From [Pantoea] beijingensis (lineage in GTDB: Bacteria; Pseudomonadota; Gammaproteobacteria; Enterobacterales; Enterobacteriaceae), in the NCBI RefSeq assembly GCF_022647505.1, contig NZ_CP071409.1:2170001-2234000 (forward strand): DNA of 64,000 bases, written 5' to 3'. This document shows, piece after piece, positions 48,346 through 60,207 of this stretch. The notes under the pieces are model-generated. The model worked only from the letters and a program-made list of their open reading frames with translations, was not told the DNA's origin and ran no database searches. Within the stretch, counting starts at the first letter, position 1; each line of letters starts with the position of its first letter. Position numbers and translations under genes: made by a program.

Positions 48346-49803
48346 TTACGGTGACATAATATTGAGTGAGTCCGCAGCAGGATGTTGCTGCAGCGATATA
48401 GGCGGTGCAAGTTTTAACGTGATCCAGTTTGAGGTTACGCGTTGTTGCTTGCTGTCTTCCAGCGTTACCGATAGACGATATTCATTGCTGGCTTCAGGAG
48501 CACTGTCCCACACGGGCATAATGACTGACCATCCCTGCGGGTCATTATTGTTCTCAGGTGGCGTCAAACTCAGCGCCTGCGTATCACCCTGCCAGCTTAC
48601 GCGGATAATTTTATTCGCGGCACGGATCTGCAGCTTAAGTGGCAGATACTCGCCGGGCTGGACCTGCCACGGAGGCGTCGCAAGGAAAACACCCAGCGTT
48701 TTCCGCTGGCGAAACTCCAGCACTGGCGTGTTGCTACGTTCGACGCTGTTATAACGACTCCCGCGCAGCGAGTGGGCTTCAGCCACGTTATCGGCAGACA
48801 GTTGTTTGCTCAGGGCTACACCCGGCCGGTAGTTCAGCCGTAACCCGAGCTGATCCTGCGAGACACCGCCTTCCCCTTCTTTATGCGACGCCGTCAAGGT
48901 GATCAGCGGTACTGGTGTGTAATTAACGCCCAACTTAACTGCGACCGGATTATTATATCCACTGCCGTTATTAAACAGATCGACGCTGTTCCCAAGGTAC
49001 TGCTCATACGTTACGGATAGACCTAACTGGCGATAAAAAGGGAGATAGCCTTGGGTTGTAATGTCGTAGCCGCGTGCCATCCTCTGTTGAGCACGGGCAG
49101 AGCTATTACGCCAACCTGAAAGCGGCGAATAGTAATTGGCGGAAAAGCGTAGGTAATCTCCCCATGCTTCAGTACCAACCGACGCTCGTTGTAATCCACT
49201 CTCTAAAAGACGATCGACAAAAGCGTTGTAGCCTAATAACCATTTCCCTGCGATCACGCGTTGACCCAGACCCGCATTCCCTACCGTGCCATCATCAGTC
49301 TGCTCAATGCCCAACTGGGTAAACGTCAGATATTGATACTTATCCTGCCAGGGCGTAAAAAGCTGCACACCACTGCCATTCAGATTACCGTCCATATCCA
49401 CGTTAAGCGCCAGGCTGGCAGTGCCGTAAGGTGAAAGCAACGATTGCCCGGTGTTAGCAACCCGTTCAGCAATTTCATCACGAAAGTGATTAAACGCCCA
49501 GCGGCTTGCCTGCAGGCGCAATGAGTCATCACTGTTATGATTCATGCTGGCTTCACCGATACTTTTCGCAACCGTTGCCAGTTGTCTGGAGAACGCCTCG
49601 CTGTCGCTGACGTTTCCAAGCTCGGGCAGCGTGCTCTGCATGTCAGTAAAACGAGAAGGATTATCGAAAGGGTAGGCTTCAACCGTGGAGTCCACCTGCA
49701 GCGCATATGCTGCAGGGAAAACGTTACTCATGCATCCCAGCACCAATAGCACGACGTGCTTTTCTTTGGCGAATGACTTAACTGCACAGTTCATACTTAA
49801 CAT
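48346..49803 (-). CDS. ychO: Inverse autotransporter (intimin/invasin-like) YchO
   Basis: Outer-membrane beta-barrel of the intimin/invasin family, 485 residues, close to E. coli YchO (464). After a signal peptide (KHVVLLVLGCMSNVFPAAYA), the barrel is recognised by NVDMDGNLNGSGVQLFTPWQ-type strands, GQRVIAGKWLLGYNAFVD and YLPFYRQLGLSVTYEQYLG. A single immunoglobulin-like domain follows; there is no long adhesin passenger. Start is uncertain: ATG at 49803 (MLSMNCAVKS) is preceded by AAGGG, while 49794 would also keep the signal. Confidence 0.88.
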   Translation of the reverse strand: MLSMNCAVKSFAKEKHVVLLVLGCMSNVFPAAYALQVDSTVEAYPFDNPSRFTDMQSTLPELGNVSDSEAFSRQLATVAKSIGEASMNHNSDDSLRLQASRWAFNHFRDEIAERVANTGQSLLSPYGTASLALNVDMDGNLNGSGVQLFTPWQDKYQYLTFTQLGIEQTDDGTVGNAGLGQRVIAGKWLLGYNAFVDRLLESGLQRASVGTEAWGDYLRFSANYYSPLSGWRNSSARAQQRMARGYDITTQGYLPFYRQLGLSVTYEQYLGNSVDLFNNGSGYNNPVAVKLGVNYTPVPLITLTASHKEGEGGVSQDQLGLRLNYRPGVALSKQLSADNVAEAHSLRGSRYNSVERSNTPVLEFRQRKTLGVFLATPPWQVQPGEYLPLKLQIRAANKIIRVSWQGDTQALSLTPPENNNDPQGWSVIMPVWDSAPEASNEYRLSVTLEDSKQQRVTSNWITLKLAPPISLQQHPAADSLNIMSP

Positions 49804-50123
49804 GGACAAACTATACCCTTAAACATTCAGGTCGCAGAGCAACGGCAAGGTCCGGGGACACGAGCCGAGACGTTGACCGAAGGATAAAGCAAGCAGCCAA
49901 CTTACCTGCACTCTGCAACAGAACGTATGTTTTTAAGAATTTTATGATCCAGTTAACAGATTTTCATAAAAGAGTAATGGCTATCGTAACATATTGCCAG
50001 GTGGAAAATAAAAAACCGCTGAAATAGCCATATTCCCCAGCGGGTTATTGACCTGCACGGTGGCAATGTTCCCAATTACAGACCAGGCTTGAGTATATTT
50101 ATCAACCATAAGAGTCTTTACCT
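49804..50123. other. Divergent region ychO/PEBP gene
   Basis: 320 bases holding promoters for both genes and a leftward hairpin with a T-run near 50010-50043 that may end a small RNA (listed separately). The AT-rich part (49921-50012) has no supported ORF. Confidence 0.45.
50010..50085 (-). ncRNA. Candidate leftward small RNA with rho-independent terminator
   Basis: On the minus strand CCGCTG/CAGCGG pairs with an interrupted inner stem (GAATA/TATTTC) and is followed by six T residues at 50015-50010. A TATACT hexamer lies at 50097-50092 on the same strand, which would place the start near 50085. There is no leftward gene upstream to use this terminator, so an RNA of about 76 bases between ychO and the PEBP gene is plausible. 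The -35 is weak, and I match no known sRNA. Confidence 0.3.
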
Positions 50124-50669: not shown

Positions 50670-51171
50670 ACCTGACTATCTGGTATTCATTACGGACTCT
50701 CTGCTCAGGCACGCGTCGTACAGAAGGAAATGTGATCGATACGACGTTGTGCCCACTCAGTGATAAAAAATATGCGACTGTTAATCGTGTTTATTCATGG
50801 ATAATGGTAAATTTATCTTATGTAAAAAAACACCACCTGTAATCAGGAGTACTGCATCGCCCTCGTCCTTCATTTCACTTATCGTCCTAAGTATAAATTC
50901 ACTTAAACAGAAAGCCACTAAGCCAAGTCTGAAGCGGGTTTTGCCCTGCTCGTCATTTGCATTTAACACGATCATGTTTATCATGCAATGGTTTAAAATC
51001 CCAAAAGTGTCATGTAGACTGACCGCAACTTTATGTTTATGTAAAACTGAGTAATTTTTGAAGCAGGTACATTATGATCGCACCGAATAAAGCAACCTTC
51101 ATTTCGGGCATATGTACGAAAACACGGCCTGAAATAGTTCAGGCTCACTGATGACATTCACGAGGAATATT
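50670..51171. other. Intergenic region before the T6SS-like module
   Basis: About 500 bases, AT-rich. It should hold the promoter of the module. Opposed ORFs of 85 (50797-51054, plus) and 67 codons (50781-50984, minus) overlap each other; neither has a Shine-Dalgarno site. No repeat or attachment site is recognised. Confidence 0.4.
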
Positions 51172-51663
51172 GTGAAAACTGGTATCGCGTTAACATTGTT
51201 AGCTGTGCTTACCGTGGCCGGATGTAAGGCCCCGCCGCCACCGATGACGGATGAGACTATGGTGACCAGCGTTGTTAATGGCGTCACGTTGACCCATCGT
51301 AATGCGGTAAAAGCACCACTGGCGTTTACCCCGGTAAATCAAACCTATCGTGCTTTATATAACGCATCGGTTATGACCCTGCCGGATTATGGCGGGAACG
51401 TGGTGGAACACCTGGAGAATGGCAAACCTTTCACCGTTCTGGGTGAGGTCGAGAATCACTGGCTTGCCATTGCCAGAACCGATGACACACGTCTGATCGG
51501 TTATGTGCCATTCAAGGCAGGAGTCATCAGCGATCGGTATGAAGCAACGATCCGTAGCGATCGCCCACGACCACGTAAGTCAACCAAACAGGTTTGCGTC
51601 GACGTGGGGGGGACCAGCAAAGCGTGCCGGAAGAACAATACCGCAACCTGGATCCTCGAATAG
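51172..51663 (+). CDS. SH3-domain lipoprotein, first gene of the T6SS-like module
   Basis: 163-residue putative lipoprotein, with signal MKTGIALTLLAVLTVAGC and lipobox VAGC. The rest has a bacterial SH3 (peptidoglycan-binding) look: LYNASVMTLPDYGGNVVEHLENGKPFTVLGEVENHWLAIART broken as NGKPFTVLGEVENHWLAI, then a basic tail. The GTG at 51172 has GAGGAA 5 bases upstream; an ATG 7 codons earlier would spoil the signal. It sits where a TssJ lipoprotein would stand, but sequence does not show TssJ homology. A hairpin (51673-51694) separates it from tssL. Confidence 0.75.
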   Translation: MKTGIALTLLAVLTVAGCKAPPPPMTDETMVTSVVNGVTLTHRNAVKAPLAFTPVNQTYRALYNASVMTLPDYGGNVVEHLENGKPFTVLGEVENHWLAIARTDDTRLIGYVPFKAGVISDRYEATIRSDRPRPRKSTKQVCVDVGGTSKACRKNNTATWILE

Positions 51664-51672
51664 CCCAGATCT

Positions 51673-51694
51673 CAGAGGGGCATCGAACCCTCTG
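51673..51694 (+). terminator. Hairpin between the SH3 lipoprotein and tssL
   Basis: CAGAGGG/CCCTCTG is a 7-bp stem with an 8-base loop shortly after the lipoprotein stop. It lacks a T-run and may attenuate rather than end transcription. Confidence 0.35.
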
Positions 51695-51758
51695 ATACCG
51701 TGCATTCCCTTTACATACTCTGATGGATCAGATGTTTCACCAGGATTTATAACATTCG

Positions 51759-52979
51759 ATGACGCTTGAAACTTCTGCACATGATGAAAGTCCTGCAGGT
51801 TCAGAAAACCCATTGCTCAGTGCGGCTGCACCGCTGCTGAACGCAATTGTACAAATTCGTCTTGCCGCCACTCATGACGATCCGGCGGGGTTGCGCCATC
51901 AGCTTATTGAAGAAATCCGTCAGTTCGAAACGCGCTGCAAGAAAATGGCATTGCCCTTCGAGACGATCATCGGGACCCGCTACTGCTTATGCAGCGTACT
52001 GGACGAGGCTGCTGCACAAACCCCCTGGGGAACGCGTGGCGTATGGTCAGGTAATGGCTTGCTGGCGACATTTCATAATGAAAGCTGGGGTGGCGAGAAA
52101 TTTTTCCAGTTGCTTTCGCGGATTTCGCAATCTCCCCATCAACATTTATGGCTGCTTGAAGTCATCCATTATTGTTTATTGCTCGGCTATGAAGGACGCT
52201 ATCGGGGTGTCGAACACGGCCGGACGCAGCGCGACCTGATTCGCTCCCGGCTGGCACAGCTTATTGAAACCACTCGCGGTGTGTCGCACTACCAGCTTGA
52301 TACACAAATTGTCGTGCGTCCATCACAGCAAAGCTTGTGGCGTCCCCCTATTCCCTTATGGGCATGCATTACGGTAATAGCCTTTCTCGGGTGTTTGATC
52401 TATACCGGGCTCAACTGGCGTCTGGGTAATGCAGCCGAACCCCTGTTGCGTGCTATTTATCAGACGCCGCTGCCCGACATGTCTACCAACCGGCGCGCCT
52501 CTCCCGCGCAGGCTTTGTTGGATCTGCATAACCGTCTGAATGATTTGGTTTCCACCGGACAAGCCGAGGTAAGCGATGGGCCTTTTGGCAGCCGTGTCAT
52601 TTTATCCAGTGACAGGCTGTTTAACGACGGTGCGACCACCCTGAATACGCCAGGCCGCGCGTTAATCGCACGCGTGGCCTTCTCAATGAGAGATGTCAAA
52701 GGAATGGTCCTGGTGACTGCGTATACCGATAATGTCTTGCCCGGCAGTAGTCGCTTTGCCTCGAATTATGAATATTCGCTGGCGCTGGCCAACAGTGTGG
52801 CTTCCCAGTTAGACCAGCAACTGTCTCCGGGACATCGCGTTAAGCCCGAAGGCCGCGGGGACAGTAACCCAATCGCAACGAATGATAATCAGCAAGATCG
52901 TGCACGTAATCGTCGTATCGAAATTACACTGTTTGCCATGCCTACGGCCGGCAAACCGACTCAACAGGGAATAAGGTGA
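51759..52979 (+). CDS. tssL: T6SS protein TssL (DotU family) with C-terminal OmpA-like domain
   Basis: Membrane-complex component of type VI secretion. 406 residues: a cytoplasmic DotU domain (about 20-200), one membrane segment (LWACITVIAFLGCLIYTGL, about 206-224), and a periplasmic OmpA-like peptidoglycan-binding domain (about 270-395) with VTAYTDNVLPGSSRFASNYE and ARNRRIEITLF. DotU hallmarks RYCLCSVLDEAA and SWGGEKFFQLL are present. It overlaps tssM by 4 bases. All known domains are intact, unlike TssM. Confidence 0.92.
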   Translation: MTLETSAHDESPAGSENPLLSAAAPLLNAIVQIRLAATHDDPAGLRHQLIEEIRQFETRCKKMALPFETIIGTRYCLCSVLDEAAAQTPWGTRGVWSGNGLLATFHNESWGGEKFFQLLSRISQSPHQHLWLLEVIHYCLLLGYEGRYRGVEHGRTQRDLIRSRLAQLIETTRGVSHYQLDTQIVVRPSQQSLWRPPIPLWACITVIAFLGCLIYTGLNWRLGNAAEPLLRAIYQTPLPDMSTNRRASPAQALLDLHNRLNDLVSTGQAEVSDGPFGSRVILSSDRLFNDGATTLNTPGRALIARVAFSMRDVKGMVLVTAYTDNVLPGSSRFASNYEYSLALANSVASQLDQQLSPGHRVKPEGRGDSNPIATNDNQQDRARNRRIEITLFAMPTAGKPTQQGIR

Positions 52980-54991
52980 TGTGTAGTAACCCCTTCTTTT
53001 CACTGCTCAATAGCCGCCTGTTTTGGGGTTTTATTGGGATCACCGCCCTGTGCAGCCTTATCTGGATGTTGGGGCCGTTGCTAACAATCAATGCCACGCA
53101 ACCGCTGGATTCTCCATTTAATCGTCAGGCCCTGATTGGCCTCTGCTATTTTTGTTGGATACTGTTCCAACTTATTCCAAAGCTTTATAGTGCCTGGTTT
53201 AATGGCAAACTGTTAGATAACTTGCAGTACAAGACCGGCGATAATTCAGATTCCGCAGCAACCGAAGCGCTGCTGGCTGCTCGCTTTAGCGAAGCTGTCG
53301 CGATGCTAAAGAAAGCGCATTTCTATCAAAAATCGTCCTCCGCATGGTTTGATCGCTACAGCGCCCAATATCTGTATCAACTGCCCTGGTATATGATAAT
53401 CGGTGCCCCCGGTGCTGGGAAAACCACGGCCTTAATTAACTCTGGCCTCAATTTTCCGCTAAGCGATAATCTGGGTAAACGTGCGGTACGTGGCGTAGGG
53501 GGAACACGTCATTGCGACTGGTGGTTTACCGATCGTGCCGTATTGCTCGATACAGCCGGACGTTACACGTTGCAGGAGAGCATTCGTGCACGTGATGCCG
53601 CTGAATGGCAAAGCTTTATTAAACTGTTGAAATATTATCGTGCCCGCCAGCCGATCAATGGTGTGATCATAACCATTAGCGTTGCTGACTTACTCAGTGA
53701 TTCAGTTGAGGCTCGTTTTACACAGGCCTGCGCGTTACGCCAGCGTCTGAAAGAGCTTCATCGCCAAACCGGCATCCATTTCCCGGTCTATATTATGGTG
53801 ACGAAAACTGACTTACTTAAAGGGTTTATGAGCTATTTTTCCGCTCTGGATAAACAGCAGCGCGATAAAACTTGGGGTTTCACCTTTCCCTGGGAGCCAA
53901 ACCGCGTCAGCGAACATGCACTTAATGCACTTTTTGATCGACAGTTTCATCGGCTTTCATTACAGATATCAAATAATCTCGCCGAAAAAATGGCGCAGGA
54001 AACGGATTTAATCCAGCGGGCAGACTGCTTTCTCTTCCCCCAGGAGTTCGCCTCACTGCGCCCATTACTGGCCGAATATCTCGACATTATTTTTTCACCG
54101 GACGAGGAAGATGTTGCCTGGTCCGCGCGCGGACTGTTTTTTACCAGCGGCACGCAGGAAGGACTGCCTTTCGATCGCGTAATGGGCGCACTCACGCGTA
54201 AACTGCAGTTACCGCAGGCAAAAAACCATTCGATTGCAGCGTGGGATAGCGTAACCCGCACTGCCCCTATTCCCGCCAGCAAAGGCCAGAGTTTTTTTAT
54301 CCATGACCTGCTCACAACCGTAGTGTTTAGAGAGTGTGGGCTGGCTGGCAGCAACCGGGCCTGGGAGTATCGTAACCGCCTGTTTCATTGGCTGGTCTAT
54401 AGTCTGTTAGCCATTACGTTATGCGTCACCTCTGGCTATTGGGGGCTGAGTTATTATCAGAATAAGCGTTACCTGCAACAGATCGAAGCAAGAATGCCGG
54501 ATATTTATACTCAAGGTAAAAAATTTGCCACCGGCAAACCTGAAAATATGCTCAGCCTGTTACCTTTTTTAAATGAGCTTGCTGCCCTGCCGCAACCGGA
54601 CTATTTTTCACTTGATACGCCTCCGCTTAGTATGCGCGTGGGGCTTTATCGGGGTGACCAGGTCAGGGATGCTGCAGCAGTACTTTATCAGAATGCCCTG
54701 AAAACCCTGCTGTTGCCGTGCATCGCCGAGCAAATTACCGCGACGCTGCGAAATAACAACGGCGTTGATAGCGAATTCAGTCGTAATGCCCAGCGGGCTT
54801 ATCAAATGCTGTATCAACCCCGCAGCTACGATGGTGAGTTTTTACATGGTTGGGTAATGCAGAATTTACAGCGGACACTGCCACCTAATGTGACCGCGCG
54901 CGATCTACAGCAGCTTGATGAACATTTGAGGCAATTACTCGACCGCCAGATTCAAAGCTCACCGTATGCGCGCGATAATACGCTTAATTAG
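52976..54991 (+). CDS. tssM: T6SS protein TssM (IcmF), truncated to the N-terminal 671 residues
   Basis: TssM is an inner-membrane NTPase that links TssL to the outer-membrane TssJ; typical proteins have 1,100-1,250 residues. This one has TM1 (about 13-36), TM2 (about 49-66), Walker A GAPGAGKT (142-149), Walker B VLLDTAGRY (188-196) and TM3 (about 465-488), then only about 180 periplasmic residues before a clean stop. The large periplasmic part that binds TssJ is missing. Only 101 bases separate the stop from the next start, and no remnant coding frame is obvious. The cytoplasmic half looks under selection. Confidence 0.88.
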   Translation: MMCSNPFFSLLNSRLFWGFIGITALCSLIWMLGPLLTINATQPLDSPFNRQALIGLCYFCWILFQLIPKLYSAWFNGKLLDNLQYKTGDNSDSAATEALLAARFSEAVAMLKKAHFYQKSSSAWFDRYSAQYLYQLPWYMIIGAPGAGKTTALINSGLNFPLSDNLGKRAVRGVGGTRHCDWWFTDRAVLLDTAGRYTLQESIRARDAAEWQSFIKLLKYYRARQPINGVIITISVADLLSDSVEARFTQACALRQRLKELHRQTGIHFPVYIMVTKTDLLKGFMSYFSALDKQQRDKTWGFTFPWEPNRVSEHALNALFDRQFHRLSLQISNNLAEKMAQETDLIQRADCFLFPQEFASLRPLLAEYLDIIFSPDEEDVAWSARGLFFTSGTQEGLPFDRVMGALTRKLQLPQAKNHSIAAWDSVTRTAPIPASKGQSFFIHDLLTTVVFRECGLAGSNRAWEYRNRLFHWLVYSLLAITLCVTSGYWGLSYYQNKRYLQQIEARMPDIYTQGKKFATGKPENMLSLLPFLNELAALPQPDYFSLDTPPLSMRVGLYRGDQVRDAAAVLYQNALKTLLLPCIAEQITATLRNNNGVDSEFSRNAQRAYQMLYQPRSYDGEFLHGWVMQNLQRTLPPNVTARDLQQLDEHLRQLLDRQIQSSPYARDNTLN

Positions 54992-55092
54992 CAAGCCGAT
55001 GTCACGGTAGCTCAATGCCGGATTCGCTAACCATAGAACACCGACACCGGCAATATGGCATCCCGACAACTCAGGCTTTAAGGATTAAGGTT

Positions 55093-55782
55093 ATGCCAGA
55101 AAAATGTAGCCCCGGCTGGTATGGGAAACTTCCCGTTACCGGGGACTTTCTTCAGCAACGGCTCACGGAACATATTGTTACCGGTTGGGCAAACTGGTTT
55201 CAGCAGGGGCTGACCCACTGGCATCACCATACAGCTGCCTCAACGACGGAATTCTTACGGGCACCGGTATGGAATTTTATTCTGCCATTAACCCCCGGCG
55301 TTCAGCGTGTTCAGATGGGCTGTTTATTACCCTCTTGCGATCGAATTGGGCGCGCCTGGCCCCTACTGGCACTCTGTAGCTTCCCCCTGGCCGACTGGTT
55401 TCCCGGTCAGCTCGCACTTTCAGGCGACTGGTATCAAAAGTTGGGCGGCATACTGCTAAAAGGCGTGCGTGAGAGACAGTCGCCGACGGAACTTGAGGCT
55501 AATCTGATCGCCCTGACGCCCCTTCCAACACGGGAAAATCAGCAATCCATGATTGTGGGGTATGATGATTTGCCCATTAGCCTGAGCTGGCGTGGCGTGG
55601 CCGATCATTTTGATCCACAGAAATCCATCAGCTACTGGTGGAGTAACCGCAGCGATGGTTATCCGCACGCAACACATAAACACAGCGGAACGCTGACGGC
55701 GGAGCTCTTTTCTCTATTATTTAATCCGGCGGCGGGGGCGCAGCCGGGGCGTAACGGGCTCTATCCGCCCATGTTTGAATAG
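55093..55782 (+). CDS. tagF: T6SS-associated protein TagF
   Basis: Member of the TagF/SciT family, 229 residues; in Pseudomonas aeruginosa TagF represses T6SS assembly after translation. It begins MPEKCSPGWYGKLPVTGDFL, with the family signature GWYGKLPxxGDF, and contains GCLLPSCDRIGRAWPLL. ATG at 55093 has AAGG upstream; a longer ORF from 55015 would add 26 residues that look unlike the family. Overlaps the next gene's ORF region but not its chosen start (55820). Confidence 0.9.
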   Translation: MPEKCSPGWYGKLPVTGDFLQQRLTEHIVTGWANWFQQGLTHWHHHTAASTTEFLRAPVWNFILPLTPGVQRVQMGCLLPSCDRIGRAWPLLALCSFPLADWFPGQLALSGDWYQKLGGILLKGVRERQSPTELEANLIALTPLPTRENQQSMIVGYDDLPISLSWRGVADHFDPQKSISYWWSNRSDGYPHATHKHSGTLTAELFSLLFNPAAGAQPGRNGLYPPMFE

Positions 55783-55819
55783 CGTTATGCCATTACGGCC
55801 TTCTATTGCAGGAAAATTC

Positions 55820-56989
55820 ATGCGATTTACCCTTATTCAAAACTACACAGAGATGCCGCTAACCACTGTTGATTTCTCACCTCCGGGGGGCACAATCGGT
55901 CGCAGCCTTGATAACGATCTGGTTCTGCCGGATGAAGAACGGGTTATTTCACGCCTGCAGGCACTGGTGCACGTTGCGAATAACGGAGAGTGTCGTCTCA
56001 CCAACCTGGGTAGCGTAACGGCGGTTGTGCTGAATGGCACGCCGCTGGAACGTGGCCGTCAGGTCGCGTTACAGCACGCCGATCGGCTCGGTATTGGCGA
56101 TTATACTCTTGAAGTTAGCGACCCCAACATCCCGGTATCACCGCAGGAAGATCCTTGCGACCCCTTGGTCCTTTTTGGCCAGCAGGAGGACTCGACGCTC
56201 GATCCTCTCGGAATTCTGCGACCTGCAGAACCGCCGGCCCATCCACCGATCGGTGACGAACCCGCCTCAGAGTTGCCTCCCGTTCGCAGCGCTAAAACCG
56301 GCGGTGCACGGTTAGATATCGATCCGTTACCGCACGAGGCCATTGGACGTAGCGGAGATGAAGACTGTACCGGCGATACGTTATTAGTTGAAGCGCTTCT
56401 TGAAGGCATGGGACTGGATCGTAACCAAAGCGCCATGCAGCTTACGGAAGAACAGATGCGGATGACGGGCCGAATGCTGAGTTTGTTTTCCCAGGGAACG
56501 GTCGCGTTGCTCTCTTCCCGCTCGATCCTGAAGCGCGGCGTAAAAGCAGAGATGACCATGATCCTCAATGAGGCAAACAACCCGTTTAAAATTTTGCCGT
56601 CCGGAAAAACCGTACTGATGCAAATGTATCAGAGCCAAATGCCCGGCTTTATGCAGCCTGAACAGGCAGTACGGGATGCGCTGGTTGATTTACAGGCGCA
56701 TCAGTTGGGTATGATTTCAGGCATCCGCGCTATTATTGCCGCCATGCTGCAATCTTTTAATCCGCAACATTTAGAAGAAGAAGCAAAACGCAGCGGCGCA
56801 CTACCGAAAATGGCCCTCTCCGCTTCACGTAAAGCGGCACTGTGGGACTATTTTATGCGCAATTATTGCCATACCGCTGGCGAGATAGAAGATGATTTCC
56901 ATACGCTCTTTGGTGAAGCCTTTTTGCATGCGTATGACGTTGAAGTTAATCAGTATAAAGACTCACAAACGAAAGCGGATGACGAATGA
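55820..56989 (+). CDS. FHA-domain T6SS protein (TagH/Fha1-like)
   Basis: 389-residue forkhead-associated protein, the phosphothreonine reader of the T6SS threonine phosphorylation pathway. FHA residues are GRSLDNDLVL (27-36), ISRLQALV (43-50) and NLGSVTAVVLNG. The usual His of SxxH is Gln here. A linker (about 110-190, Pro-rich) leads to the C-terminal T6SS-FHA domain with LLVEALLEGMGLD and LLSSRSILKRGVKAEMTM. Start at 55820 has CAGGAAAA upstream. Ends in an ATGA overlap with the phosphatase gene. Confidence 0.88.
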   Translation: MRFTLIQNYTEMPLTTVDFSPPGGTIGRSLDNDLVLPDEERVISRLQALVHVANNGECRLTNLGSVTAVVLNGTPLERGRQVALQHADRLGIGDYTLEVSDPNIPVSPQEDPCDPLVLFGQQEDSTLDPLGILRPAEPPAHPPIGDEPASELPPVRSAKTGGARLDIDPLPHEAIGRSGDEDCTGDTLLVEALLEGMGLDRNQSAMQLTEEQMRMTGRMLSLFSQGTVALLSSRSILKRGVKAEMTMILNEANNPFKILPSGKTVLMQMYQSQMPGFMQPEQAVRDALVDLQAHQLGMISGIRAIIAAMLQSFNPQHLEEEAKRSGALPKMALSASRKAALWDYFMRNYCHTAGEIEDDFHTLFGEAFLHAYDVEVNQYKDSQTKADDE

Positions 56990-57762
56990 ATATCGCCTTT
57001 GCATCAACGTCACAAACCGGTGCCAGAGAGAGTAATCAGGATCAAATTGGAACTATGCTGGGAGAAAACAGCGCCTGTTTTATCGTCTGCGATGGCGTCG
57101 CGGGTTCACCTGGCGGCGGCGAAGCGGCAAAAATAGCGTGCCATACATTGTTGAGGACGCTGCAGGATAACAAACATTTTACCGCCGAGGATACCCGACT
57201 GGCGGTGGAAAAAAGTGCAAGAACCCTTCGGGAAGCACAAGGGATTAATCCGAAACTTCAGCACATGAGCACCACGCTGGCTGCCCTGTTTATCGATCGT
57301 GATTATTCGCTCTCATGGTGGGCGCACGCAGGCGACAGCCGCATTTACCACTTCCGACGGGGCTATATCAATCGCGTCACAAGTGACCATAGTCTGGCCC
57401 AACAGATGAAGGAAGCCGGTTATGAAAATACCGGAATTAACAGCAATTTACTTTATAATGCGCTGGGCGTTGATACCGCAGGTTATGTGGCCTTTAGTGA
57501 GATGCTTACGCTTGAAGATGGCGATGCTTTTTTAGTCTGTAGTGACGGATTTTGGCTGAGTCTGCAGGCAGAAGAGATGGAACTGGCATTACGGATGGTG
57601 AACTCACCCGATGAGTGGCTGACCCTGATGCTAAAAGCCATCGACCGGGGTGCCGCCAGCGATAACTTAAGCGCTATTGCGGTATGGGTTGGCTCCCCGC
57701 AGGAAACGACGTTGTTATATTCACTGGCTGATTCGGCGCGCTTGATGCCGCCACGCGATTAA
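56986..57762 (+). CDS. pppA: PP2C-family Ser/Thr phosphatase (PppA-like)
   Basis: 258-residue metal-dependent phosphatase that should reverse PpkA phosphorylation of the FHA protein. Metal ligands are Asp19 (SNQDQ), Asp36-Gly37 (CDGVAG), then HAGDSRIYHFRRG, VCSDGFW and AASDNLSAIAVW, covering all PP2C motifs. It overlaps the FHA gene by 4 bases, so coupled translation is likely. The catalytic set appears complete. Confidence 0.9.
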   Translation: MNIAFASTSQTGARESNQDQIGTMLGENSACFIVCDGVAGSPGGGEAAKIACHTLLRTLQDNKHFTAEDTRLAVEKSARTLREAQGINPKLQHMSTTLAALFIDRDYSLSWWAHAGDSRIYHFRRGYINRVTSDHSLAQQMKEAGYENTGINSNLLYNALGVDTAGYVAFSEMLTLEDGDAFLVCSDGFWLSLQAEEMELALRMVNSPDEWLTLMLKAIDRGAASDNLSAIAVWVGSPQETTLLYSLADSARLMPPRD

Positions 57763-57776
57763 CACCAAGGAACGAT

Positions 57777-58727
57777 ATGAAATATTGGTTACCCGGGGTT
57801 GCCATGCTGTTGATGGCTTTTACTACCCACGCGGAAAATTATCGCGTTGTCTATTCACCCAATCTGTCGCTTGAGGTGTTTATTGATAACGTTGAGAGCA
57901 ATGCGTTGCAGGACTGGTGTCAAAAATCCCTGCATCTGCGTATTGTTTCCGGTGCGCGTAATGAATCACAGATATTGGATAACTTTCTTCCCCGCGTCGG
58001 TAAGCTATTAACCAGTCAGTGCAGTAAATTGACCAATCTGTCATGGCAAATGACCAACCGGCAGGGTACGGCTCTGGCCAGCGGGACAGCGGATAATACC
58101 AACGACTGGAAACCGGTAGTGACCGCGGATGCCACGGCAACAGCGAATGCATCCAATGCGGCGCCATTAGATCTCTCCCGCCCGGCAAACAGCGCATCAC
58201 TGCCACAATTTGAACTGCCCGGTGGTTGCCGTTTCAGGACCTGGTGGGATGAAAACAGTCAGTCAATATTTATACCCGACGATCGAGCCCTGACCTGTTC
58301 ATCTGAAGGCTGGCTTGAAGGAAGTAGCCAGATTACGCGCGCGCACGGAGATAAAACGACGACAACCGTAGTCGACTTTTACCAGGGCTATCCGCTGGTC
58401 AATATACACGCGGCCAAGAACAGCATGAACGTTGTGACAGTCAACAATCAGCGGATGGTCGTTGCCGCTCAGGACGCTCCCGATAGCTGGCTGGTATTAC
58501 CATTTAATCCTGCGTTGCATGCTTGGTCTTTCGGCGGCACGCTACTGGTGAAAATGGATAAAAGTCAGGCTGATGATGTTGCCCGTGTCAAAGCCCATGT
58601 CGATGCCCTCAAAAAAACCTGGACACCCCTGGTCGCTTCCGAAGTTAAGATGACCGTGTTACTGGTTGACGATCTTCATGCCGACCTCGCCGATCCGGCC
58701 ATTGGGGCATACCGTACCGTTAATTAA
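57777..58727 (+). CDS. Unknown exported protein within the T6SS-like module
   Basis: 316 residues with a signal peptide (MKYWLPGVAMLLMAFTTHA) and hence probably periplasmic. I recognise no domain. The mature part begins ENYRVVYSPNLSLEVFIDN, has an Ala/Thr/Asn-rich linker near residues 115-140 (ATATANASNAAPLDLSRP), four or more Cys, and a C-terminal part of alternating strands. It starts 14 bases after pppA and ends 61 bases before the kinase gene, so it belongs to the same transcript. It may sense or bind something on the periplasmic side of the kinase; that is speculation. Confidence 0.7.
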   Translation: MKYWLPGVAMLLMAFTTHAENYRVVYSPNLSLEVFIDNVESNALQDWCQKSLHLRIVSGARNESQILDNFLPRVGKLLTSQCSKLTNLSWQMTNRQGTALASGTADNTNDWKPVVTADATATANASNAAPLDLSRPANSASLPQFELPGGCRFRTWWDENSQSIFIPDDRALTCSSEGWLEGSSQITRAHGDKTTTTVVDFYQGYPLVNIHAAKNSMNVVTVNNQRMVVAAQDAPDSWLVLPFNPALHAWSFGGTLLVKMDKSQADDVARVKAHVDALKKTWTPLVASEVKMTVLLVDDLHADLADPAIGAYRTVN

Positions 58728-58788
58728 TTGCAGGCGTACCGCCTGCGACGATCAGGTTGCTAGCATTAACGCTCAGAGAGTGTCAAAT

Positions 58789-60207
58789 ATGTCGGGAAAT
58801 GAAAATCAGAAAAACGTGCCTAATGCATTACCTGCCGGGTATCGTTTTAATGAGTTTGAGATTAAAGAAGTAATTGGTGGCGGCGGATTTGGCATTGTTT
58901 ATCGTGCGTGGGACCATTTGCTTGAACGCTCTATTGCCATCAAAGAGTATATGCCGGTATCGCTGGCCATGCGAAACGATGACCTGAGCCTGACGCTGCG
59001 GGGTGAACGTCATCATAAAATTTTCACTGCTGGCCTAAATAGTTTTATTCATGAGGCGCGCCTGCTGGCCCGCTTTAATCATCCTGGCCTGCTGCACGTA
59101 TTACGTTTTTGGGAAGAGAATGGCACCGCCTATATGGGCACGCTCTACTATAGCGGCATAACGTTAAAGGAGTGGCAGCAGAACAGCCCTGAACGCATTA
59201 ATGAAGCATGGATAAGGCGACTACTGCCCCCACTTTTTAGCGCCATTAACACCATCCACCTCGCCGGTTACCTGCACCGGGATATCTCACTGGATAATAT
59301 TCAGATCCAGGATAACCAATTGCCAGTTTTGCTGGATTTCGGTTCAGCCCGTAAGGAAATAGGCAACCTCTCCGATGAAACCGAAATCATGCTTAAACCC
59401 GGTTTCGCCCCTATCGAACAGTACAATGAAGGATGCGATAGCGAACAAGGACCCTGGACCGATATTTACGCTCTTGGCGCGGTATTACACGCACTGGTCA
59501 CCGGTGCGCCACCACCAATCAGCGTCGTGCGCTGTATTGAAGATAATTATCAACCTCTGGTTGAACGTTGTCCCGATGGTTATTCACTGCCGCTACTGCA
59601 CGCAATTGATCGGGCGCTGGCCCTGCAAGCTGATGAGCGCCCCCGCACCATAGATGAATTCGCCGCCCTGATTAATCTGCCAGTAAGCGATGTCCAACAA
59701 TTGGTCACCGCGGTGGCGCCGCTCGTCAGTCTTGATGACAAGCCCGAGGTCGCCGAAGCCGTCGAGCCTGTTATTCTGGCCGTGAATCCGGCGGCAGGTG
59801 CGGCAGAAAATGTAGTCACTGGAAGCACACGCCGTCTGTCGCGTCCGCTGATAGCATTAAGCGCGCTTGCCGTCGTCATGGTTATTGGTCTGATCTGGTT
59901 GCTTGATAGTGGCAATGCACCGCAGCAGGAAGTCGGGCAAGCGGCTCTTTCGGAGGGTTCAACGCCATCCCATTCTGACGCAGCCGCATCACCAGCCCTC
60001 GCCACCGTCTATCTACAATTAAAAAACGGTGAGAACGTGCGCCTGAATGGCACCAGAGTCACCCCCCAACCCGCCAATCGCGGCTATGCCTCACTGCATC
60101 TGGCAGCAGGGGAATACACCCTTGAGATTGAACGTCAGGACGGCGCGCACTCACAGCAGTTGAAGATCGATCGGGCGGGTACCTGGCTGATTAACCCTGG
60201 CTTATAA
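58789..60207 (+). CDS. ppkA: Membrane Ser/Thr protein kinase (PpkA-like)
   Basis: 472-residue Hanks-type kinase. Glycine-rich loop GGGGFGIVY (30-38), catalytic Lys52 (AIKEYMP), Glu89, HRDISLDN (163-170) and DFGSA (183-187) are all present, so it should be active. A single membrane segment (about 353-372, PLIALSALAVVMVIGLIWLL) is followed by a 95-residue periplasmic PEGA-like domain. In P. aeruginosa, PpkA phosphorylates Fha1 to start T6SS assembly. Start at 58789 is chosen by similarity; the ORF extension overlaps the upstream gene. Confidence 0.9.
   Translation: MSGNENQKNVPNALPAGYRFNEFEIKEVIGGGGFGIVYRAWDHLLERSIAIKEYMPVSLAMRNDDLSLTLRGERHHKIFTAGLNSFIHEARLLARFNHPGLLHVLRFWEENGTAYMGTLYYSGITLKEWQQNSPERINEAWIRRLLPPLFSAINTIHLAGYLHRDISLDNIQIQDNQLPVLLDFGSARKEIGNLSDETEIMLKPGFAPIEQYNEGCDSEQGPWTDIYALGAVLHALVTGAPPPISVVRCIEDNYQPLVERCPDGYSLPLLHAIDRALALQADERPRTIDEFAALINLPVSDVQQLVTAVAPLVSLDDKPEVAEAVEPVILAVNPAAGAAENVVTGSTRRLSRPLIALSALAVVMVIGLIWLLDSGNAPQQEVGQAALSEGSTPSHSDAAASPALATVYLQLKNGENVRLNGTRVTPQPANRGYASLHLAAGEYTLEIERQDGAHSQQLKIDRAGTWLINPGL

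Follow-up and report, generated by a model that had tools for sequence, protein, structure and literature searches.

The 64,000-nucleotide stretch of [Pantoea] beijingensis analysed here (contig NZ_CP071409.1, positions 2,170,001 to 2,234,000; hereafter the window) carries eight contiguous plus-strand genes, tagV-like, tssL, a C-terminally truncated tssM, tagF, fha, pppA, rtkS and ppkA, which by gene content are the type VI secretion system 2 (T6SS-2) locus of Pantoea and Erwinia. Our data indicate that this locus, which stays intact in many bacteria associated with plants, is probably a functional device for signalling rather than a wreck. This view builds on direct observation of gene content and order, of a truncation of TssM common to a single clade in the TssM tree, of purifying selection, and of retention in genomes in which the injection machine itself was not found.

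Eight syntenic genes were described as T6SS-2 in Pantoea and Erwinia billingiae by De Maayer et al. 2011 (PMC3235180), who judged the locus partial and potentially non-functional and proposed that it arose when T6SS-1 was partially duplicated. Four of the eight genes encode conserved T6SS proteins (PMC3235180, PMC3942780). A four-gene form occurs in E. amylovora and E. pyrifoliae (PMC3235180; that of E. amylovora also in PMC5561584), and the statement in the initial annotation that Pantoea and Erwinia carry a reduced T6SS locus was correct (PMC3235180, PMC5561584). The locus has been named PA T6SS-3 in P. ananatis, where it was present in every strain tested (PMC3942780), and P. stewartii DC283 lacks T6SS-1 but retains T6SS-2 (PMC5603701). 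The T6SS-3 type of PMC3235180 is reported to lack PpkA, PppA and Fha. In the literature searched, neither a test of selection on the locus nor a proposal that it works on its own was seen; the novelty here is the testing of the published non-functional view, and the result speaks against that view.

Conservation and selection of the locus

In a scan of genome contigs with the window TssM, the best 80 of 192 confirmed loci were retained and sorted by blastp into 43 of T6SS-2 type (L012-L048, L063, L067, L073, L079, L080, L085) and 37 with a full-length TssM. Together with 20 loci from genomes of the same genus and the window itself, this gave 64 T6SS-2 loci. L018 and L073 belong to one assembly and give equal values, and L015 and L131 have identical TssM; L063 and L073 were excluded from all alignments and from the estimates of the ratio of non-synonymous to synonymous substitution (dN/dS), as were genes with less than 80% coverage, including tssM of L121. 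All eight genes are present at a coverage of at least 80% in 57 of the 64 loci. The incomplete seven comprise three loci cut by contig ends (L027, L043, L079), one from P. stewartii in which tagV is missing (L030), one from Candidatus Pantoea haifensis in which several genes are broken, kinase and phosphatase among them (L063), and two (L115, L121) in which tagV, pppA, rtkS and ppkA are jointly missing and tssL, tagF and fha remain, with a broken tssM in L121. These last two are similar to the four-gene form of E. amylovora and E. pyrifoliae, and the joint loss may be a sign that all eight genes function together.

Selection was estimated by Nei-Gojobori counts on codon alignments of disjoint close pairs with dS of 0.05-0.8, L124 being left out of the T6SS-2 medians because its dN/dS of 0.22-0.44 with L025 resembles dS saturation. 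With 13-20 pairs per gene, median dN/dS was 0.061 for tagV, 0.040 for tssL, 0.043 for tssM, 0.077 for tagF, 0.094 for fha, 0.069 for pppA, 0.094 for rtkS and 0.075 for ppkA, so that the per-gene check proposed in the initial annotation returned medians of 0.040-0.094. For the complete T6SS-1 clusters, sampled from 28 of the 37 full-length TssM loci (nine left out), the medians over 8-9 pairs were 0.075 for tagV, 0.033 for tssL, 0.059 for tssM and 0.101 for tagF. As such, dN/dS in T6SS-2 matches the low level of complete T6SS-1 clusters; the locus is under purifying selection, and random decay was rejected. For tssL and fha, dN/dS peaked at 0.14 and 0.19, respectively, in the pair L115 and L121, which has lost kinase and phosphatase. 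Whole-locus median dN/dS was 0.065 in seven pairs without T6SS-1 and 0.080 in seven pairs with it (p 0.62, kinship ignored), and loss of the parent machine is therefore not accompanied by relaxed selection.

These values bear on the published picture of a duplicated T6SS-1 of which only a decaying, functionless remnant is left. The locus lacks most core genes, decay is visible in L063, L115 and L121 and is reported for E. pyrifoliae and E. tasmaniensis (PMC3235180), and knock-out of the locus in P. ananatis left virulence and antibiosis unchanged (Shyntum 2015, as told in PMC5603701), all as such a remnant would predict. It would not predict eight genes in 57 of 64 loci, median dN/dS of 0.04-0.09, the same as in T6SS-1, or the occupation of one chromosomal site, next to chaC, in 58 of 63 relatives, and we regard it as a very improbable account. 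The initial annotation had itself named decay of the kinase and phosphatase in relatives as one finding that would speak against its reading: both genes are intact and constrained in most relatives, but they are missing in L115 and L121 and broken in L063.

Machine genes and machine-free genomes

The window genome is a single contig of 4.107 Mb, in which a whole-genome search found matches to TssB and TssC only at about 0.70 and 2.72 Mb and none at the T6SS-2 locus. TssF and TssK matches were likewise confined to those two distant loci, in agreement with the initial annotation, which had seen no sheath or baseplate genes in the window. No Hcp, VgrG or ClpV was recognised among the open reading frames (ORFs) of the window, these three and TssA, TssE and TssG standing outside the profile searches. 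Core genes linked to the locus beyond the window edge, which the initial annotation had named as counter-evidence, were sought in the whole-genome search and among the ORFs of the next 16 kb and rejected: apart from the tssM of the locus itself, no TssB, TssC, TssF, TssK or TssM lies in that region.

The two other T6SS loci carry TssB, TssC, TssF and TssK, and their TssM aligns with the model only from about position 430 onward. By blastp, the window T6SS-2 proteins have no relative at either of them apart from the OmpA domain, and the sole match to the T6SS Fha C-domain (PF20232) in the window genome is the window Fha. As a separate observation, the two loci share a 2.2 kb block of 99.8% identity in the tssB-tssC region (697.9-700.1 kb and 2721.6-2723.9 kb) and a second block of 1.4 kb at 99.2% (703.4-704.8 kb and 2716.9-2718.3 kb), the rest of the 40 kb T6SS stretches giving no DNA alignment but one 0.75 kb block at 71%; at the sequence level this looks like recent gene conversion between the two T6SSs.

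Across genomes, the two types were told apart by the length of the Fha ORF, 371-431 aa being counted as T6SS-2 and 520-807 aa as T6SS-1, with pieces of 253 and 443 aa counted as T6SS-1. Of 37 genomes of the genus, 33 carry T6SS-2 and 25 T6SS-1 by this test; 10 have T6SS-2 only, 2 have T6SS-1 only and 2 have neither (sign test p 0.039, kinship ignored). A second set consisted of named T6SS-2 carriers, chosen as such (40 of the 43 T6SS-2 loci, with L027, L043 and L073 left out and L031 not included), and 19 of its 39 searched genomes lacked a T6SS-1-type Fha. The sets have 9 genomes in common by coordinates and together comprise 63 T6SS-2 genomes, in 26 of which a T6SS-1-length Fha is absent. 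In four of the 63, namely G310, P. latae G340, P. stewartii G345 and P. eucrina Russ G351, TssC was not found, nor were TssF and TssK, with the window genome as positive control. Three of these four machine-free genomes keep all eight genes and that of P. stewartii lacks tagV; compared with their nearest kin they show dN/dS of 0.02-0.16 per gene. The best case is G310, which is in 6 contigs at 100% completeness.

The initial annotation had left open whether the circuit acts on a T6SS elsewhere in the genome or has been reused as a stand-alone device. Under the former reading, the T6SS-2 kinase, phosphatase and Fha would regulate another T6SS in the same cell, and this would be in keeping with the fact that every part of the locus is a T6SS control part, with the 37 of 63 T6SS-2 genomes that also have a T6SS-1-type Fha, with the 59 of 63 that have TssC, and with the two other T6SS loci of the window genome. 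However, the failure to find TssC, TssF and TssK in 4 of 63 genomes, the absence of any dN/dS rise where T6SS-1 is missing, the want of blastp matches between the window proteins and the T6SS loci of their own genome (OmpA domain excepted) and the unaltered antibiosis of the P. ananatis knock-out (PMC5603701) are all difficult to reconcile with control in trans. Because the window genome has two other T6SS loci and only one T6SS Fha, and because TssC, TssF and TssK were not found in four of the 63 genomes, such control is unlikely as the general role of the locus. A stand-alone device is favoured, consistent with dN/dS that is low and no higher where T6SS-1 is absent.

Parts of the locus and the truncated TssM

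Profile and structure matches bear out the initially described run of eight plus-strand genes for T6SS membrane and threonine-phosphorylation parts (Table 1). The first product is named TagV-like, as its full-length match to the TagV model NF041850 (E 4.7e-59, 198.8 bits) missed the curated cut-off of 300; the protein is 50-59% identical to the T6SS-1 protein at the equivalent position. The start codon of tagF is probably at 55093, most relatives aligning from about residue 26 onward, and that of fha is probably at 55820. RtkS was recognised by a sequence and fold match to the 9k1u complex, the crystal spanning residues 133-316 only of the window protein, and its gene adjoins pppA and ppkA. 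PpkA matches the PpkA kinase 5hnv (E 4.1e-152) and 9k1u_D, the kinase chain of the RtkS-PpkA complex (E 4.4e-13), and as such both members of that solved complex are encoded in the locus. The catalytic residues are intact, as initially noted: the kinase HRD and DFG motifs, the PP2C aspartates and the FHA GR/S/N residues are kept across 57, 58 and 61 aligned sequences, respectively.

Table 1. Genes of the T6SS-2 locus with their positions in the window and the matches that identify them.
Gene	Position	Strand	Product and matches
tagV-like	51151..51663	+	SH3-domain lipoprotein
tssL, long form	51759..52979	+	DotU domain PF09850 (5.8e-62); OmpA domain PF00691 (5.2e-08); membrane helix by eye
tssM, C-terminally truncated	52976..54991	+	671 aa; TIGR03348 (1.3e-187), model positions 1-627 of 1168
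tagF	55015..55782	+	PF09867 (5.4e-31); structure matches 2qnu, 6iz8
fha (TagH)	55775..56989	+	FHA domain PF00498 (1.1e-11); T6SS_FHA_C PF20232 (4.2e-48)
pppA	56986..57762	+	PP2C phosphatase; PF13672 (6e-16); 53-54% to T6SS-1 PppA
rtkS	57777..58727	+	periplasmic partner of PpkA; "exported unknown" in the initial annotation; RtkS by sequence, fold and position
ppkA	58666..60207	+	kinase PF00069 (5.5e-21); membrane helix by eye; C-terminal domain; start probably 58789

TssM retains its N-terminal part with the Walker A motif GAPGAGKT, which is invariant in the 26 aligned sequences. In comparison with a T6SS-1 TssM (L056), which has three Pfam domains, the T6SS-2 form keeps the first and half of the second; PF06744 (IcmF_C) and the second half of PF06761 are absent from T6SS-2 TssM and present in T6SS-1 TssM. 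The border is sharp, with conservation to residue 670 in the 26 aligned sequences and a variable tail after that. In a T6SS, the missing parts are the ones that extend to the outer membrane and the baseplate. Since the C-terminal part is absent in all 61 usable T6SS-2 TssM proteins, the "damaged membrane anchor" of the initial annotation was the wrong picture. The presence of the truncated form in 60 other loci also led us to reject an assembly error or local deletion. The window protein ends earlier than most relatives (671 against about 704 aa), and this was set aside as a sign of decay, as TssM lengths of 674 to 749 aa occur among retained relatives and the sequence is variable past residue 670.

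In a TssM tree of 97 rows, built by a quick method with midpoint rooting and some long rows (L065 left out), the 61 T6SS-2 rows, window included, lie on one side of a branch with SH-aLRT 100, and the join of T6SS-2 with most T6SS-1 is supported at 81 only. The grouping is broadly by genus; together with the chaC neighbour in 58 of the 63 non-window loci and a GC of 0.50-0.53, this led us to reject a recent horizontal gain.

The truncation invites two further readings. In one, the incomplete TssL-TssM pair would be an inhibitor or decoy that poisons or tunes the T6SS-1 membrane complex via subunit mixing, for which a whole TssL and a TssM with its N-terminal part would be suited, Enterobacterales T6SS-1 TssM being about 50-55% identical to the window protein. 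Yet the locus is kept in genomes without a T6SS-1-length Fha, and the kinase, phosphatase and RtkS would be needless; we consider this reading very improbable. In the other, a minimal export or envelope-remodelling complex, the truncated TssM would move a substrate or act on peptidoglycan and phosphorylation would only gate it. The invariant Walker A in the 26 aligned sequences and the presence of OmpA and SH3 domains fit this idea, in contrast to the absence of the outer-membrane part (TssJ and the TssM C-terminal domain) and of any recognised candidate substrate gene in the locus; we hold it to be highly unlikely.

The Fha C-domain (window residues 231-330 of the 404-aa ORF) is near-invariant in T6SS-2 and much alike in two T6SS-1 proteins, and Thr 261, identical in 61 of 61 T6SS-2 sequences, is a candidate phosphorylation site on sequence grounds. 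Upstream of the locus, on the minus strand at 48346-49809, lies an inverse autotransporter beta-domain gene (PF11924, E 1.4e-93), and in 12 of the 63 loci the flanking DNA examined contains a relative.

A proposed signalling device and its relation to known systems

We think it rather probable that T6SS-2 is a stand-alone envelope signalling device. Two T6SS-1 clusters (G119, G222) were compared with the locus, the homologues of the eight window genes being assigned by blastp and the other genes named by position and first residues. Their order is tagV, two genes that are tssJ and tssK by position, tssL, tssM, tagF, a first block (machine genes and variable genes), fha, pppA, rtkS, a second block, and ppkA; removal of both blocks and of the pair between tagV and tssL gives the window order. 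The locus may have arisen once, in an ancestor of the Erwiniaceae, from a T6SS-1-type cluster or a duplicate of one that shed its machine parts and retained its control part. TssL, by its OmpA domain, and the truncated TssM would form a peptidoglycan-anchored hub in the inner membrane, and the TagV-like lipoprotein would add another contact to peptidoglycan; TagV has been proposed as a peptidoglycan binder (PMC7614798). RtkS would bind and stabilise the periplasmic domain of PpkA and relay an envelope signal, its published homologue binding that domain and being required for PpkA stability and normal Fha phosphorylation (PMC6082577). PpkA would phosphorylate Fha and perhaps TssL too; in Agrobacterium, TssL phosphorylation requires PpkA activity and Fha binds TssL (PMC3953482). 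PppA would strip the phosphate and TagF, which is reported to bind Fha (PMC5995506), would restrain Fha. Active Fha would join PpkA and the TssL-TssM hub at the membrane, and the output would be directed not at an injection machine but probably at control of the envelope or of gene expression. All of these interactions and the direction of signalling are inferred by analogy with relatives. In Acidovorax citrulli, Fha foci form with tssJ-to-clpV deleted but require active PpkA (PMC12607579), and the Vibrio cholerae Fha TagH controls hemolysin besides the T6SS (PMC8993066); an Fha-gathering switch can therefore run machine-free, and a T6SS Fha can act outside the T6SS.

Several points weigh against a stand-alone signalling device. 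The P. ananatis knock-out described above had no effect on either trait, and no output gene is linked to the locus. Kinase, phosphatase, RtkS and TagV are missing, and thus dispensable, in L115 and L121, as is the whole locus in the 4 of 37 genus genomes without it by the Fha test. The four machine-free genomes are not known to be closed, and in such unfinished genomes absence is not proof. When all 151 close, non-independent pairs are taken, median dN/dS rises to 0.10-0.20, with values up to 0.57, many at high dS. In published work, the RtkS homologue is suggested to mark an offensive T6SS (PMC6082577), Serratia TagV is reported without interaction with TssL or TssM (PMC7614798), and the A. 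citrulli Fha foci persist with the phosphorylated threonine replaced and as such need not report phosphorylation (PMC12607579). Whether the weapon is permanently lost and the peptidoglycan-anchored TssL-TssM hub with its RtkS-PpkA-PppA-Fha-TagF switch serves as a general, machine-independent envelope sensor of the Erwiniaceae is a bolder proposal, for and against which we would judge equally. If true, the control part of an injection machine would have outlived the machine, in a locus that has been classed as partial and potentially non-functional since 2011, and nature would provide a system for studying the PpkA-Fha switch and the TssL-TssM hub without firing apparatus, which would show the capabilities of these parts on their own. 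It is also a caution to annotation pipelines in which TssL, TssM or Fha counts as evidence of a T6SS.

Among known systems, the threonine phosphorylation pathway of Pseudomonas, Agrobacterium and Acidovorax shares kinase, phosphatase, FHA reader and TagF with the window locus, the TssL-Fha link being a feature of Agrobacterium (PMC3953482). Those pathways gate the machine of the same system, whereas the window locus encodes none alongside. The Erwiniaceae T6SS-1 and the T6SS of Serratia marcescens have TagV, RtkS, PpkA, PppA, Fha and TagF in common with it, and T6SS-1 (G119, G222) has a counterpart for all eight window genes in the same order. In contrast to T6SS-1, the window lacks the genes at the tssJ and tssK positions, the C-terminal part of TssM and both blocks, and Fha is shorter in T6SS-2 (371-431 aa, against 520-807 aa). 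The closest system is the Pantoea/Erwinia T6SS-2 itself, whose eight genes, including those for TssL, IcmF/TssM, the FHA protein, kinase and phosphatase, are all in the window. Unlike the published account of T6SS-2, the present analysis finds purifying selection equal to that on T6SS-1, identifies RtkS and a TagV-like protein, and describes a TssM truncation common to the loci and a locus that is kept where TssC, TssF and TssK were not found.

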